Shown piece after piece: positions 24,039 through 30,551 of a DNA stretch of 64,000 nt. The stretch comes from Acidiferrobacterales bacterium. Its GTDB lineage: Bacteria; Pseudomonadota; Gammaproteobacteria; Arenicellales; JAJDZL01. The stretch covers positions 1 through 64,000 of the forward strand of contig JAPPIB010000035.1 in assembly GCA_028820695.1 (NCBI GenBank), written 5' to 3'. Made by a program: the position numbers and the translations under genes. The notes beneath the pieces were generated by a model, which saw only the letters and a program-made list of their open reading frames with translations, did no database searches and was not told the DNA's origin. How positions within the stretch are numbered: position 1 is the stretch's first letter; each line of letters begins with the position of its first letter.

Positions 24039-25514
24039 ATGAACAAACGAGCTTTGATGATTCAAGGCACCGGATCCGATGTGGGGAAGTCCATCATTGT
24101 CGCAGGATTATGCCGGGTGATCAGGCGTCGAGGCATCTCAGTGGCGCCATTCAAACCACAGAATATGTCCAATAATGCCGCCGCATGTCCCACTGGTGGT
24201 GAGATCGGAAGAGCGCAGGCACTGCAGGCAAGAGCCGCAGGCATCATTCCTACTGTCGATATGAATCCGGTTTTACTGAAGCCGCAGTCGGATCGTACTT
24301 CACAGGTCGTTGTCCACGGTCAGGTGACGTCGACACTGGAAGCAGTGAAATACATGTCAACTCGGGATTCGCTTTTAGCGCCGGTCATGCAAAGTTTTGA
24401 GAAGTTGACAGAATTGTACGACTGCGTGATTGTGGAAGGTGCCGGCAGTGCCGCAGAAACAAATCTTCGAGAGCGGGATATCGCGAACATGGGATTTGCG
24501 CGTCACGCAGGAGTTCCAGTTTCGTTGCTTGCGGACATCGATCGCGGCGGTGTGATCGCTTCGGTAGTCGGCACAAAAACAGTCCTGGACCCGAAAGATT
24601 CAGCCATGATACAGAGTTTCATCATCAATCGTTTTCGAGGTGATGTGAGTCTGTTTGATGATGGCGTAAGAGAAATCGAAAAGCGTACCGGTTGGCCATG
24701 TAGAGGTGTCGTGCCTTGGCTTGACGACGCTCGCCGGTTACCGCAGGAAGACGCGATTGTTATGGATTCATTTGATGCACACGATGAATCCAAGCAACGA
24801 AAGCCACTAAAGATTGTCGTACCGATGCTGTCCAGAATCGCCAATTCGGATGATTTTGATCCCCTTAGATTGGAACCGAACGTTCAATTCGAGTTTATTC
24901 CGCCCGGCACGCCACTACCGCTCGATGCGGATGTCATGATTCTCCCAGGATCGAAGTCGACAGTCGGGGATCTTGAGTTTTTGCGTTCGCAAGGCTGGGA
25001 TCATGACGTCATTGCCCATGCCCGCAATGGTGGATGGGTGCTGGGGTTGTGCGGCGGGTATCAGATGATGGGTCGGTACGTGCGCGATCCACAGGGACTC
25101 GATGGCGCGCCGGGTGAGTCGTTGGGTTTAGGGTTGTTGGATATTGAGACAGACATGCGAGGAAATAAGTCAGTACGACCGGTGAAGGGTGTTTGCACGG
25201 TTACCGATACACCGATTGAAGGTTATGAGATCCATATCGGGAAAACACATGGCTCGGATACGGTGCGCCCGTTTGCCCGGATCGGCGACATCGCTGATGG
25301 AGCAGTCAGCATTGACGGCAGAATCGCCGGATGCTATCTGCATGGAATATTTTCGACTGATGAGTTCAGAAAGACATGGCTGGATCGAATTCGAAAGGGG
25401 TCGGCGTCAGAACTTCGCTACGATACGAAAGTTGAGCAATATCTTGACGGCGTTGCGGATGGACTTGAAGATGCGCTTGAAATCGATTGTCTGCTCGCCG
25501 ATGCCGAGGTGTGA
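24039..25514 (+). CDS. cobQ: Adenosylcobyric acid synthase (glutamine-hydrolysing)
   Basis: Amidates side chains b, d, e and g of adenosylcobyrinic acid a,c-diamide using glutamine and ATP. The 491-residue product has the N-terminal P-loop-like dethiobiotin-synthase domain (MIQGTGSDVGKSIIVAGLCR; KPQNMSNNA near residue 40; EGAGSAAETNLRERDIANMG). The C-terminal class I glutamine amidotransferase domain has nucleophile Cys in VLGLCGGYQMMG and His in GCYLHGIF. It is the only corrin-biosynthesis gene in the window and has no cobalamin riboswitch upstream, unlike the btu operon. It converges on that operon, with a transposon between the two. Confidence 0.95.
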   Translation: MNKRALMIQGTGSDVGKSIIVAGLCRVIRRRGISVAPFKPQNMSNNAAACPTGGEIGRAQALQARAAGIIPTVDMNPVLLKPQSDRTSQVVVHGQVTSTLEAVKYMSTRDSLLAPVMQSFEKLTELYDCVIVEGAGSAAETNLRERDIANMGFARHAGVPVSLLADIDRGGVIASVVGTKTVLDPKDSAMIQSFIINRFRGDVSLFDDGVREIEKRTGWPCRGVVPWLDDARRLPQEDAIVMDSFDAHDESKQRKPLKIVVPMLSRIANSDDFDPLRLEPNVQFEFIPPGTPLPLDADVMILPGSKSTVGDLEFLRSQGWDHDVIAHARNGGWVLGLCGGYQMMGRYVRDPQGLDGAPGESLGLGLLDIETDMRGNKSVRPVKGVCTVTDTPIEGYEIHIGKTHGSDTVRPFARIGDIADGAVSIDGRIAGCYLHGIFSTDEFRKTWLDRIRKGSASELRYDTKVEQYLDGVADGLEDALEIDCLLADAEV

Positions 25515-25671: not shown

Positions 25672-25679
25672 GAAATTAA
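25672..25679. repeat. Left target-site duplication (8 bp)
   Basis: GAAATTAA directly precedes the left inverted repeat and is repeated exactly at 28636-28643 outside the right one. Eight bases is the duplication length made by IS1595-family elements. The direct repeat can be read as 10 bases (CGAAATTAAG), so the exact ends are ambiguous by one base. Confidence 0.85.
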
Positions 25680-25703
25680 GGAAATTATAAATAAAGGTTG
25701 ACA
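25680..25703 (+). repeat. Left terminal inverted repeat of the IS1595-type element
   Basis: A 24-bp end beginning GGAAATTATAAATAAAGG. It matches the reverse complement of 28612-28635 at 22 of 24 positions, with mismatches at positions 3 and 5. Confidence 0.88.
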
Positions 25704-25733
25704 CAAAGTGACGGGGGCGTGTAAAATGCGCGC

Positions 25734-26060
25734 ATGCGTGTACCTGTGCAAATTCAAATTCTATGGCATTTTGGTGCGGTAATTGGTGCTGGAATGGGAT
25801 GGACTACGGATACAATCCCGCAAATTGCCGTTTACATTCTGATCGCGTTGTGGCTTATTACATTAGGCTGGACACTATGTTCATATAAATCCGGTATTTA
25901 TTCGTATTGGCGCAGAATGCGAGGCAAAAATGAAGGCGAATTAGATTTACACAATGCTCATCAAGTTTTGCAATACTGGGATGAGCCTGAAAGCGAGTTG
26001 GAAAAAATTTTTTCCGCAAAACAATATTACGGCATTGGCATAAAAATCAACCCAAACTGA
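25734..26060 (+). CDS. Passenger small membrane protein of unknown function
   Basis: A 108-residue product that I do not recognise. Residues 8-25 and 29-50 form two hydrophobic spans. The rest (YWRRMRGKNEGELDLHNAHQ onward) is polar and probably cytosolic. It is the first gene inside the transposon, 31 bases past the left inverted repeat, and points toward the methyltransferase gene, so both may share a promoter near the element end. The ATG lacks a strong Shine-Dalgarno sequence. The stretch is visibly more A+T-rich than the flanking cob/btu genes, as expected for imported DNA. Confidence 0.6.
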   Translation: MRVPVQIQILWHFGAVIGAGMGWTTDTIPQIAVYILIALWLITLGWTLCSYKSGIYSYWRRMRGKNEGELDLHNAHQVLQYWDEPESELEKIFSAKQYYGIGIKINPN

Positions 26061-26086
26061 TAAAAATAGTCGCGACTGGAGAGCTT

Positions 26087-26143
26087 ATGGAAATCAAGCA
26101 CCCAAACGGGAATCACTGGTCGAATAAATCTGCTGTTAAATGA
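26087..26143 (+). CDS. Possible 18-residue peptide coupled to the methyltransferase gene
   Basis: An ATG preceded by GGAGAG opens an 18-codon frame (MEIKHPNGNHWSNKSAVK) whose TGA overlaps the methyltransferase ATG as ATGA. The methyltransferase start itself lacks a good ribosome site, so this short frame could deliver ribosomes to it by translational coupling. A separate function for the peptide is not implied. Confidence 0.45.
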   Translation: MEIKHPNGNHWSNKSAVK

Positions 26144-27516
26144 CCGATCCAAAACGAGAAGCACCAACCCGCAAACCAGCGAATTTTGCCAGCGGCACAA
26201 TCTGGACTGGCGACAATCTGCCGATCATGCGGGGGATGAATTCTGAATCGGTTGACTTGATTTATCTTGACCCGCCTTTTAACAGCAACAAAAACTATTC
26301 CGCTCCAATCGGATCTGAAGCTGCAGGTGCAGCGTTCAAAGATACCTGGACACTTTCTGATATAGATGTCCATGAACACGGTGAATTGGCTGATCGAAAT
26401 CCAGCCGCTTATTCCGTTATCGAAGCGTCGCGACAGGCACATGGCAAAGGTATGATGTCATATCTTATTTTCATGGCAGTGCGATTGTTGGAAATGAAGC
26501 GGATCTTGAAGCCGACTGGCTCAATTTATTTGCACTGCGACCCGACTGCTTCGCACTATCTGAAACTTTTGTTAGATGGAATATTTGAACGTGCGAATTT
26601 TAGAAATGAAATTGTCTGGAAGCGTACATCTGGCCACAGCGATTCCAAAACTATGGGATCAGTGCATGACGTAATCCTTCATCAATCAATATCGGATGCA
26701 CTTACATACAATGTGCAATACGTTGCTTATAGCAAGGAATATGTGAAACGACGATATAGGCACCAAGACCCTGACGGCAGGCGTTTTATGGATGGAGACT
26801 TAACCGCAAAAGGATTGCAAAGTGGGGGGTATGTGTATGAATATCGAGGCACTACAGCAGAATGGCGTGTGCCTTTTGAAAAAATGAAGGAATTAGATCG
26901 GGAAAACAGACTGTATTTCACTAATCGTGGTGGGATTAGAATAAAACGATATTTGGATGAAATGAAGGGTGTCCCAATCAATGATGTTTGGACCGATATT
27001 GATCCAATAAACTCACGCGCGCGCGAGAGAATTGGCTATCCCACTCAAAAACCTCTTGCTCTTCTTGAAAGAATAATCAGGGCATCCAGCAACATCGGCG
27101 ATATGGTATTCGATCCATTCTGCGGGTGCGCAACGACGCTGGTTGCGGCAGACAGACTGCAGCGTCAATGGGCGGGCATTGATCTCTCGCCTCTGGCGAT
27201 CAAACTGGTAAACGAGCGCATCAGTGAAGACCGCGGCTTGTTTGGCGGCGCAACTTCGCTTAATACGGCACCAGTGCGAACAGATTTGGGCAAACTGCCG
27301 AACTATCGAACGCACCGCCATCGCCTTTATGGCGAACAGGAAGGAGTGTGCACCGGCTGCGAAACACACTTTCCGTTTCGGGTGATGGATGTAGACCACA
27401 TTCTGCCAAAATCTCGAGGTGGAACGGATCATCCAGACAATCTTCAACTGCTTTGTTCCGGTTGTAATCGGAGCAAGGGCGGGAAAACTATGGCTGAATG
27501 GAGAAGTGTGCAATGA
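26140..27516 (+). CDS. Site-specific DNA methyltransferase (beta class) fused to an HNH nuclease domain
   Basis: A 458-residue two-domain protein. Residues 1-385 form an N6-adenine/N4-cytosine methyltransferase of the beta order: the catalytic motif IV DPPFNSN (44-50) comes first, and the SAM-binding motif I FDPFCGCATTLVAADRLQRQWAGID (about 325-350) comes near the end. Residues about 400-450 form a zinc-type HNH domain with CTGCETHF, DVDHILPKSRGG, DNLQLLC and CNRSKGG. HNH domains cut or bind DNA, so the protein joins methylation and a nuclease fold in one chain. Recognition site and nuclease activity are unknown. It is passenger cargo of the surrounding IS1595-type element; the starts and stops overlap small ORFs on both sides. 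Confidence 0.88.
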   Translation: MTDPKREAPTRKPANFASGTIWTGDNLPIMRGMNSESVDLIYLDPPFNSNKNYSAPIGSEAAGAAFKDTWTLSDIDVHEHGELADRNPAAYSVIEASRQAHGKGMMSYLIFMAVRLLEMKRILKPTGSIYLHCDPTASHYLKLLLDGIFERANFRNEIVWKRTSGHSDSKTMGSVHDVILHQSISDALTYNVQYVAYSKEYVKRRYRHQDPDGRRFMDGDLTAKGLQSGGYVYEYRGTTAEWRVPFEKMKELDRENRLYFTNRGGIRIKRYLDEMKGVPINDVWTDIDPINSRARERIGYPTQKPLALLERIIRASSNIGDMVFDPFCGCATTLVAADRLQRQWAGIDLSPLAIKLVNERISEDRGLFGGATSLNTAPVRTDLGKLPNYRTHRHRLYGEQEGVCTGCETHFPFRVMDVDHILPKSRGGTDHPDNLQLLCSGCNRSKGGKTMAEWRSVQ

Positions 27517-27701
27517 AAAAATATCGACCAAAATTGGATCCACAGGTTGACCTCAAAGGCGCAACACCTGAAACACTGGCAAAAGCGTTATTAACCCCGC
27601 GCGTGCGAGGAAAGCCCGTTGTTCGCCGTGAGTCTTCTGTGGAGAAGGTTGCGACCGACAAGCCGGGCGACAGTATCACGCATCTGGGCAAGAGTGTCTA
27701 A
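27513..27701 (+). CDS. Small passenger ORF overlapping the transposase 3' end
   Basis: A 62-codon frame whose ATG overlaps the methyltransferase stop (ATGA). Residues 1-26 (KKYRPKLDPQVDLKGATPETLAKALL) precede the transposase and look like a genuine small-protein start. The rest is antisense to the transposase C-terminus (27591-27701) and could be fortuitous. I do not recognise a family. Coupling to the methyltransferase stop supports translation, and convergent overlap with the transposase could affect expression of both. Confidence 0.45.
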   Translation: MKKYRPKLDPQVDLKGATPETLAKALLTPRVRGKPVVRRESSVEKVATDKPGDSITHLGKSV

Positions 27702-28553
27702 GTTACGGATATTGTGCTTACCGGCAAACTCATGAACATAGCGGTCAAGATGCTTCGGGCTAATCTTGTGGAATGTGCCTTTGTGCGCTCGATTGAGCAT
27801 GGCCCAGAATGACTCAACGCCGTTAATATGAGCCTGTTTTTTTACATACTCACCAACAGAATGCTTGACCGATTCATGATCAAATGGCAGATTGGAGTAA
27901 GATGTCGAATCATCGGTGTAGACAGTGGCATCGTCACTCACATTGTCAGCAATGAAGCCTTGCAGGAATTCGGCGGTTGTATTCTTAACAACTTCTGCTC
28001 GAACTTCATTCGTTTCGCGGTCTTTGATTCCTGCAACCGCAGTCTTACCAGTTGCGCCGCGACCGGCATGAAGTTTCTTGTCAGCATGCTTGTTCTTTTC
28101 AAGACCGCCAAAATACGCCTAATCAACCTCAACCGGACCGTTAAAGTCATCATCTGAATCATGCATCCAGGCTTCACGAATTCTATGCAGCATGAACCAC
28201 GCGGTTGGCTGAGACACTTTTATATCCCTATGCAATTTCATGCTGGAGATGCTTTTGAGATTTGTAAGGCAAAGGTAGATAGCTATGCACCATTTCTGCA
28301 TAGGTACTTTGGAATTGGCGATAGGTGTATTGGTCTTGACACTGAAGTAGCTGCGGCAGTCAGTGCACCAATAAGGCATTTTCTTGTGACTTGCTTTACT
28401 GGTGCGGGTAGAACCGCAATGCGGGCAATAACGACCATCCAGCCAGACAACACTTTCAAACCACTTGGTTGCAATTTCGTTGTCCGGGAACATGGCAAAC
28501 AGGTCAATAAGAGATATACCGATTCTGTGGGATTTACCTGGTGCTTGCTGCAT
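27591..28553 (-). pseudogene. IS1595-family (ISXO2-like) transposase, interrupted by an amber codon
   Basis: One frame of 320 codons encodes a full ISXO2-like transposase, split by a single TAG at 28119-28121. The upstream part has an N-terminal zinc ribbon (CPHCGS and CTDC), the KWCIAIYL helix and ends at PVEVD. The next codon, usually Glu in the family pattern VDExYFGG, is TAG. The downstream part resumes with AYFGG and runs through HAGRGATGKT, VYTDDSTSY, HINGVESFWAML and the C-terminal helix. A single G-to-T change in GAG explains the stop. TAG serves as a normal stop elsewhere here (for example pepP), so read-through is not expected. The ATG follows a GAGG ribosome site. Confidence 0.9.
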
Positions 28554-28611
28554 AACTTGACCTCGTTTCGTATTTCTAACTCGATATAAGTTATAACGAT
28601 TTTCAAAGTTT

Positions 28612-28635
28612 TGTCAACCTTTATTTATAAATCCC
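28612..28635 (-). repeat. Right terminal inverted repeat of the IS1595-type element
   Basis: A 24-bp end matching the left repeat in inverse orientation at 22 of 24 positions. It lies about 60 bases upstream of the transposase ATG and may contain its promoter. Confidence 0.88.
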
Positions 28636-28643
28636 GAAATTAA
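28636..28643. repeat. Right target-site duplication (8 bp)
   Basis: GAAATTAA, identical to 25672-25679 beyond the other end of the element. Confidence 0.85.
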
Positions 28644-28655
28644 GTTTCCCCGCTT

Positions 28656-30551
28656 TCAGTTTGTCAGCACAAAAGAAACCGGAACCATCGCAATTCCATC
28701 CGACATCACACCGTTATTGCGCGCTGGCAGGAATTTCCACTTTCGAACCGCTCTTTTCGCAGCTTTATCCAATCGCGGAAAGCCACTAGATGTATGCGTC
28801 TCGATTTTCTGTGCGTTGCCGCGCGAATCAACGTGAACGCGCAGAACCACCCGACCTTCTTCATTGTTGGCTCTTGCCAGATATGGGTATTTTGGGGCTG
28901 GATTGGATAAGCCGGGAACACCGAATTGAGGTGCCATTTCAGTGCTCTGTGCCAAACCTTCCGTCTCGACGTCTGACTGAACTGATGCGACTCGATCTGT
29001 TCTTGAACTTGATGTGGTGTCGACTATCGAGGCTTTGTCCGCATCCCGGGCACGTTCGAGAGGCAGTGGCTCGTTCAGTTGTGAATTGAATGTATCTGTT
29101 TTGTCAGCATAAACTTTTGCAAACTTCGGTTGCCGGTCTTTGTGTTCTGTCCTGTTCGAAATGTCGTCCTGAGAGTTGACCTGTTCAGAGAGCAACATTC
29201 TTGTGGTTCTGTCTGGATGCTCATCAACTATCGGCAGTGATGGCATTTCAGGGATGGATGCAGCGTTCGATTCGGTTTCGTGTGATAGTTCAATCGTTTC
29301 AGCAGAGTCGACTAAGAGATTCCGCTCGTCAAGTTCAGCAAAAGCAATTCTGACTTCGACTTTGTCTGCTGCGTCCAGCACTGTCCTCGATATATTCGCT
29401 TTCGCGACGACCGGACCTGATTGCTGTGGATTTTCTTCAACGGATGGAGTTTTTGGCAAGTTGACAGTTTTGTCAACTTGTCTTGGAGTGGAGCGGTCAT
29501 CGATCACATCCAAAATGGAATCCGGGAACCCCATCGCAAACAGTTCTTGCTCAATGTCCAAGGCAGATTGTGAGGATTTGGACTTGTTCATCCGCGCCGA
29601 ATTTTCTGACTGATTGATTGCCAATTCACTTTCAGTCAATCGTAACTTTTCAATTGGAGCCGACTTTTCGGATCCATCCACTGATACAGGAAATCTTGAC
29701 ACGGAAATATGCTCATCGATCACGTCTTGAATCGCGTCAGGATATTCTCTCGCGATCAATTCGAACTCCAAATCGGTAGGGTGTCGTTGGGTTGCTGTTG
29801 TCTGATTTTCCTCGACGTCTACAATCGGTATCGTAGCTGCGGGTGGGACAGGGACACCCCGCTCCACTTCCGTATTTTGCACTCCTGGCGGGATGGATAG
29901 GCTATCAGCTGTGTCTAATATGGCATCGGGGAGAACCTTGGCAGTCATTTCATGTTCGCTATCGATTGCGGTCGGTTCAAACAGGATCTGGTCTTGATGG
30001 GTAACCAGAGCAGTTCGAAAATCCGACGGCTCTTCATCGCTAGCGAAGATCTTCGAAACATTGGGGGTTGTGTCCTCAGAGTCTGACGAGTCCAAATTAA
30101 TTTCGGTACCGCCAACAAACTCCATTGATCTGTAATTTTCAACGTCCCATACAGTCTTGGTCCATTCCTTCGACGAATCCAGCGGTTCCTCAACTCCTGC
30201 AATTCGATCAGCATCGGACTGGTGCCCGGATTCAATTGGGGCTTGAATTGGGTTTACGCTGTCTTCGATCCTGTTGTGGGCCTCCACGACTTCAGTCGTC
30301 TTTTGTGCCGGAGAGGTTGATGTCGCGACGTTCAACTGGATGTCCGTTCCCGTCTCGTTGGTTTTCTCTTGCAGTTGCATGCCGGCTCCCGGAATGCTGG
30401 ATTCCGGAACAAGAGTGACGCTGATGGGAACAATCGGATTGGGCGGTACAAATTCAGGCACAGTCATCAGCATGGCAAAAGCTGCAACGATGTGAACGAA
30501 AAACGAACCGACCATCGAAAATGCGAACCTGAACGGGTGTTTTCGGATCAT
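28656..30551 (-). CDS. tonB: TonB-like energy transducer of the B12 operon, with an internal 20-residue repeat
   Basis: A 631-residue TonB-type protein, more than twice the usual length. Residues 10-32 form the inner-membrane anchor with the S/H pair seen in TonB (SFFVHIVAAF). The C-terminal 90 residues form the TonB domain, with the YP motif in APKYPYLARANNEEGRVVLR and the end KWKFLPARNNG. Between them lies a 500-residue acidic linker instead of the usual Pro-Lys/Glu stretch. It holds three copies of a 20-residue repeat (197-216, 260-279, 332-351) with pattern DxExE..A...PD-A/S-I.D. It is the last gene of the btu operon, one base after btuD, so it probably energises BtuB. The transposon sits 5 bases beyond the TSD-flanked end past its stop region. 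Confidence 0.82.
   Translation of the reverse strand: MIRKHPFRFAFSMVGSFFVHIVAAFAMLMTVPEFVPPNPIVPISVTLVPESSIPGAGMQLQEKTNETGTDIQLNVATSTSPAQKTTEVVEAHNRIEDSVNPIQAPIESGHQSDADRIAGVEEPLDSSKEWTKTVWDVENYRSMEFVGGTEINLDSSDSEDTTPNVSKIFASDEEPSDFRTALVTHQDQILFEPTAIDSEHEMTAKVLPDAILDTADSLSIPPGVQNTEVERGVPVPPAATIPIVDVEENQTTATQRHPTDLEFELIAREYPDAIQDVIDEHISVSRFPVSVDGSEKSAPIEKLRLTESELAINQSENSARMNKSKSSQSALDIEQELFAMGFPDSILDVIDDRSTPRQVDKTVNLPKTPSVEENPQQSGPVVAKANISRTVLDAADKVEVRIAFAELDERNLLVDSAETIELSHETESNAASIPEMPSLPIVDEHPDRTTRMLLSEQVNSQDDISNRTEHKDRQPKFAKVYADKTDTFNSQLNEPLPLERARDADKASIVDTTSSSRTDRVASVQSDVETEGLAQSTEMAPQFGVPGLSNPAPKYPYLARANNEEGRVVLRVHVDSRGNAQKIETHTSSGFPRLDKAAKRAVRKWKFLPARNNGVMSDGIAMVPVSFVLTN

Follow-up and report, generated by a model that had tools for sequence, protein, structure and literature searches.

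The 64,000-nucleotide window analysed here (positions 1 to 64,000 of the forward strand of contig JAPPIB010000035.1, from the Acidiferrobacterales bacterium assembly GCA_028820695.1) contains at 25672-28643 a single mobile element of about 3 kb, an IS1595-type insertion sequence (IS) of the kind known as a transporter IS, whose cargo is predicted from its domains and structure model to be a beta-class N6-adenine methyltransferase fused to an HNH nuclease. We consider it probable that this cargo is a single-polypeptide restriction-modification system and that the element comes from a lineage which refills its cargo slot with defence or addiction cassettes. The window element is itself of a known kind; the interest lies in a lineage with exchangeable defence cargo, and this lineage appears to act as a shuttle for the defence genes of bacteria. 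Bacteria constantly exchange restriction-modification genes by a route that is mostly inferred from gene neighbourhoods, and here the vehicle is very small, one transposase and two 24-bp ends, with cargo swapped between congeneric species on the same backbone. Whether a single IS can transport immune genes becomes a directly testable question, defence genes not yet characterised can be sought in the content between such ends, and a methylase lineage is revealed in which HNH, GIY-YIG or Mrr nucleases are interchangeable.

Boundaries, insertion site and family

Two inverted ends of 24 bp, identical at 22 positions, bound the element: the left end (IRL, + strand) at 25680-25703, GGAAATTATAAATAAAGGTTGACA, was compared with the reverse complement of the right end (IRR, - strand) at 28612-28635, GGGATTTATAAATAAAGGTTGACA. 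An exact 8-bp target duplication, GAAATTAA, abuts both, its left copy at 25672-25679 and its right copy at 28636-28643. In 200 shuffles of the flanks in two-base blocks, the best match of ends accompanied by an exact 8-bp repeat was 15/24, so that the short inverted ends and 8-bp duplication of an IS1595-family element are present here beyond chance, and the methyltransferase-HNH gene (26140-27516), a passenger foreign to transposition, lies inside this one pair of ends as in a transporter IS. The transposase gene (27591-28553, - strand) matches PF12762 (9e-35), PF12760 (9e-6, over the cut-off) and NCBIfam NF033547 (transpos_IS1595), and its zinc-ribbon cysteines and acidic residues align with those of eight relatives. 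The initial annotation had described the inverted ends, the 8-bp duplication and an ISXO2-like transposase, all of which hold, and also a longer 10-bp repeat, CGAAATTAAG, which proves to be the 8-bp GAAATTAA with one chance-matching base on each side. Its overall reading as an IS1595 transporter IS with a methyltransferase-HNH passenger is supported by recurrence in other genomes and by an uninterrupted cobQ-tonB locus in a congener.

The element sits between the 3' ends of two convergent genes, cobQ (24039-25514) and a tonB-like gene (28656-30551). In the congener G004, whose CobQ is 89% identical, cobQ and tonB are adjacent with no insert; the intergenic DNA has diverged and the 8-bp target is not alignable. 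The empty site that had been anticipated was thus found as an empty locus, not as a base-exact one, and three further congeners have cobQ with different DNA downstream. Other copies with the same cargo had been anticipated as well; similar methyltransferase-HNH elements do occur in other genomes, but genome searches found no second copy of the exact window element, and no other occurrence of its left inverted end, in the source genome.

The IS1595 family and the transporter IS are established (Siguier, Gagnevin and Chandler, 2009, as cited in PMC11891212, PMC3129680 and PMC7986276), and passengers already named include a regulator in IS1595 (ISNha5) and a methyltransferase in IS220 of the IS1380 family (PMC11891212). 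Like known members, the window element has a DDE_Tnp_IS1595 domain with a zinc ribbon, ends beginning with GG, an 8-bp duplication and passengers within one end pair. It differs from them in that most passengers of its lineage are restriction-modification or other defence cassettes, which replace one another on a backbone that stays nearly identical and is accompanied by a small protein; the window copy also has an interrupted transposase. Movement of restriction-modification genes with ISs has been shown experimentally (Takahashi et al., 2011, PMC3031569); in those cases the IS lies at or flanks the system, in cointegrates or composites, whereas here one transposase and one end pair enclose the cassette. 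Literature searched by title and abstract, with subscription papers and ISfinder outside its coverage, yielded no account of an IS1595 lineage with defence cassettes as its main, exchangeable cargo.

The methyltransferase-HNH fusion

The passenger, encoded on the + strand, is a 458-aa protein with a methylase domain at residues 38-358 (PF01555, 1.2e-41) and an HNH domain at residues 404-452 (PF01844, 9e-12), an assignment further based on catalytic residues. Its structure model (predicted local distance difference test, pLDDT, 85.7) has as nearest folds EcoP15I Mod (E 1.4e-19, 18% identity) and M.BceJIV, both beta-class adenine methylases. The gene is coupled to tiny open reading frames (ORFs) on both sides: the stop of an 18-aa ORF (26087-26143, + strand, read from the sequence) overlaps the methyltransferase start in an ATGA, and the start of a 62-aa ORF (27513-27701, + strand) overlaps its stop in another. 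Both the fusion and this coupling had been recognised by the initial annotation, whose suggestion that the cargo may be a modification or defence module gains support from comparison of the protein with its relatives.

When the seven nearest relatives (L110, L124, L125, L126, L128, L130 and L132), which come from several phyla, are measured against the window protein, the methylase cores prove 75-84% identical and the HNH domain 87-91%, against 20-34% for the target-recognition region; the HNH is under strong purifying selection, its nonsynonymous divergence (dN) being 0.11-0.19 with synonymous divergence (dS) near 3 or saturated. Invariant in 42 proteins are the DPPF and DPFCG motifs and, in the HNH, the four cysteines (Cys4), D419-H420, N434 and N443. 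A constant HNH behind a replaced target-recognition region fits a working single-chain restriction-modification enzyme, and the fusion probably cuts DNA, with cleavage that would be blocked by methylation of the site. In the mechanism we propose, the methylase domain would mark adenines at a site chosen by the replaceable target-recognition region, and the fused HNH would cut unmodified DNA with the same specificity. A role in phage defence is suggested by family resemblance to the methyltransferase models of PADLOC, in which, among the 25 families listed, the fusion matches MTase_II and MTase_III and not type IIG.

The fusion could alternatively be an orphan methyltransferase, either an epigenetic regulator or a protection against restriction by the host or by other elements, with an HNH that is not a restriction nuclease and acts, for example, as a zinc domain that binds DNA or as a helper that nicks it. 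Consistent with this, the window element has no separate restriction enzyme gene, and many methylases of the same lineage have no HNH match, 19 of 83 tree rows forming such a group. The HNH, however, is more conserved than any other part of the protein and keeps its motif residues throughout, and unrelated nuclease folds occupy sister positions: some members of the methylase lineage have a T5orf172/GIY-YIG domain instead, and an Mrr-type nuclease domain stands behind related methylases in L277, where the Pfam match is weak and under the cut-off, and, by motif only, on the source genome's contig C37. Unrelated folds in the same place suggest that nuclease activity is the selected trait, and we regard an orphan methyltransferase as unlikely. 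It is very improbable, in our judgement, that the HNH instead serves the element, nicking or cutting target or donor DNA for transposition or homing, with the methylase as the element's protection. HNH nucleases are a typical component of homing genes, and the fusion does recur inside elements with paired ends; yet other elements of this lineage lack the fusion and have ordinary restriction pairs or BstA in its place, each element has its own target site and duplication and nothing points to homing at a single site, and most fusion homologues lie outside elements altogether.

Like type IIG/IIC enzymes, a single-chain restriction-modification enzyme of this kind has methylase and nuclease on one polypeptide, presumably with one shared target-recognition region. 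Classical type IIG enzymes mostly combine an N-terminal PD-(D/E)XK nuclease with a gamma-class methylase, whereas in the present fusions the nuclease is C-terminal, an HNH (or GIY-YIG or Mrr), and follows a methylase of the beta class with EcoP15I Mod as its nearest fold. That best fold match is a likeness to type III methylases, from which the fusion differs in standing without a Res subunit and in having an HNH in place of the separate helicase-nuclease.

The nearest supported clade of the fusion spans Gamma- and Alphaproteobacteria, Cyanobacteria and Chloroflexota. Many matches come from uncultured symbiont genomes, one of whose titles names a sponge, and many of the bin names presumably belong to marine-sponge projects. 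Methylase homologues are also present in viral and plasmid collections, and just two of the viral loci examined, both distant, include a transposase of the IS1595 type on the same stretch. In the methylase tree the IS-borne members occupy scattered positions, with a minimum of 12 changes of label, so that the link with IS1595 must have arisen or disappeared repeatedly. Paired ends that might betray non-autonomous copies are almost absent around transposase-free fusion homologues.

Three further loci touch on this protein family. On contig C37 of the source genome, positions 3-1343 (L027) encode a second methylase from this lineage, whose C-terminal domain is Mrr-like as judged by motif; next to it comes a small protein of the YQP family described below; the contig begins inside the methylase gene with a proline-repeat artefact. 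L169 (7941-11168, Poribacteria) has a methyltransferase-HNH between paired ends of another type (CGCAATAAGTAGTTTTGGG) with an exact 8-bp duplication; no IS1595 transposase was seen there, and it is possibly another vehicle. In L110, the closest element in another genus, the transposase is frameshifted and the contig becomes unrelated GC-rich sequence after about position 2560, inside the methyltransferase, at a junction that is probably a misassembly in a draft genome.

Backbone and cargo in the IS1595 lineage

A sister element in the congener G005 (L244, 7912-11182), with ends matching each other at 24/24, has a transposase 80% identical in DNA to that of the window, with no stop. It also has a 61-aa ORF that is a clear homologue of the window's 62-aa ORF. 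Homology between the two elements ends at the start of this small ORF, and the cargo of L244 is a different methyltransferase with a type II restriction enzyme (PADLOC REase_II, 1.5e-88). With ends, transposase and small ORF shared and the cargo different, the backbone has been kept and the cargo exchanged. The duplication of L244 is not visible because the contig ends exactly at the right terminus.

The wider survey covered the source genome and 100 related genomes, searched with the transposase alignment, and accepted elements with ends matching at 19/24 or better and an exact 8-bp duplication; censuses were made by searches and from stretches of the genomes. It delimited 16 elements of 2.4-7.4 kb, the window element included, and no bare IS. 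Methyltransferases are present in 11 of the 16: fused to HNH in the window, L109, L120 and L245; fused to GIY-YIG, in decayed form, in L267; with an Mrr-like tail in L277; beside a separate restriction enzyme in L246, L247 (whose enzyme is ThaI-like), L251 and L249 (with a weak methylase call); and as a pair, with a GHKL-type protein matching restriction enzyme models, in L025. The remaining elements carry BstA (L271), SocA/Panacea (L272), an IrrE-like protein (L279), cargo with no recognised family (L252) and a mixture with other mobile genes (L254). A methyltransferase-led locus search added L128, L144 and L176, plus L138 at a contig edge, and the combination of paired ends, 8-bp duplication, IS1595 transposase and methyltransferase-HNH recurs in L109, L120, L128, L144, L176 and L245. 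IS1595 transposases also stand beside methyltransferases at loci where both ends are not in view (L248, L250, L255, L256, L257, L262 and L263, and contigs C21 and C6 of the source genome), the one on C21 adjoining a true type III system.

Two of these elements have further features. L025 (318-7695 of contig C29), a second delimited IS1595 element of the source genome, is 7.4 kb long and also contains two genes with no family, and L271 (399-3105), with 23/24 ends and an exact 8-bp duplication, pairs its homologue of the abortive-infection protein BstA (PADLOC 3.6e-110) with two small ORFs.

The 62-aa ORF of the window belongs to a family of 50-70-aa proteins with the motif YQPxKAE...TPExhAxAhhxP, positioned at the transposase end, or else after the final cargo gene, in elements whose cargo differs widely. 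Eleven of 59 relatives have this transposase clade; the family is present in 8 of these 11 and absent from the 48 others, and the members tested have no convincing Pfam family. Besides the window copy we located members at L128 9306-9521, L247 141-383, L248 892-1191, L256 4170-4385, L244 8847-9032 and L258 6886-7068, and such proteins accompany IS1595 elements of otherwise unrelated cargo, including a SocA-like one. The 3' part of the window ORF is antisense to the transposase end and would be conserved passively; the motif part lies outside this overlap.

These distributions bear on whether the association of IS1595 with defence genes reflects mere neighbourhood, both piling up in variable regions with cargo captured at random. 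Some elements do have other or unrecognised cargo (L252, L254), and the scatter of IS-borne members over the methylase tree would suit such capture. Against it, the cargo lies inside paired ends and duplications and not just nearby, bare ISs are missing among the delimited elements, the YQP family follows the transposase clade, and sister elements exchange one defence cassette for another; we give mere neighbourhood very little credence. One methyltransferase query set likewise gave hits in 9 of 14 elements against none in the 153 kb of DNA around them, a contrast biased by the fact that the set was drawn mostly from the elements themselves.

This bias weighs against the reading of a lineage that refills its slot with defence cassettes, as do three other observations: 5 of the 16 delimited elements lack a methyltransferase, the G004 empty locus is not exact to the base, and many close homologues of the fusion (L124-L126, L130 and L132) stand alone, with neither transposase nor paired ends, from which it follows that IS1595 is not the sole means of movement for fusion genes. 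We nonetheless favour that reading, which the window alone could not have revealed. The backbone would consist of the two ends, the transposase and probably the 62-aa ORF, and the slot would have been refilled repeatedly, with type II restriction-modification pairs, methylase fusions to HNH, GIY-YIG or Mrr, and BstA, SocA-like or IrrE-like genes. The cargo probably aids persistence of the element through host protection or a penalty on loss, and the association of IS1595 with defence genes may have its reason there. A bolder version, which we put forward tentatively, is that the lineage is a dedicated defence shuttle, whose constant backbone of ends, transposase and 50-70-aa YQP protein takes up and swaps compact immune or addiction cassettes singly and carries them between distant phyla sharing a habitat, with the YQP protein acting in cargo exchange or cargo control.

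Interrupted transposase and smaller features

In the window copy the transposase frame is cut by an in-frame TAG (28119-28121, - strand, read from the sequence) directly after the first catalytic Asp. The initial annotation, which missed this codon, had called the element complete; that description stands for its structure and fails for its autonomy, and the copy is now fixed unless mobilised in trans. An uninterrupted relative of the transposase is present in a congener. Alignment with relatives finds the rest of the transposase beyond the TAG well preserved, and the break therefore seems recent, unless a sequencing error accounts for it. A sense reading of TAG was considered and rejected, since TAG ends 9 of the 41 open frames of at least 250 codons in the window.

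A promoter-like site, TTGACA-18-TAAAAT (25698-25727, + strand, 11/12 matches in a promoter scan), has its first hexamer at the inner edge of the left inverted end. That it would drive the cargo is suggestive only; promoter-like sites in the region are not more numerous than in shuffles. Downstream of it, a 108-aa protein (25734-26060, + strand) has one predicted membrane segment and no known family in Pfam and NCBIfam scans. Small membrane proteins recur in other elements (L024 1486-1848, L258 7065-7256 and L244 10499-11128), with no clear similarity to one another or to that of the window. Two methyltransferase-HNH elements also encode DUF2513 (PF10711) proteins (L109 8518-8775 and L128 7723-7986), which are possibly cassette regulators.

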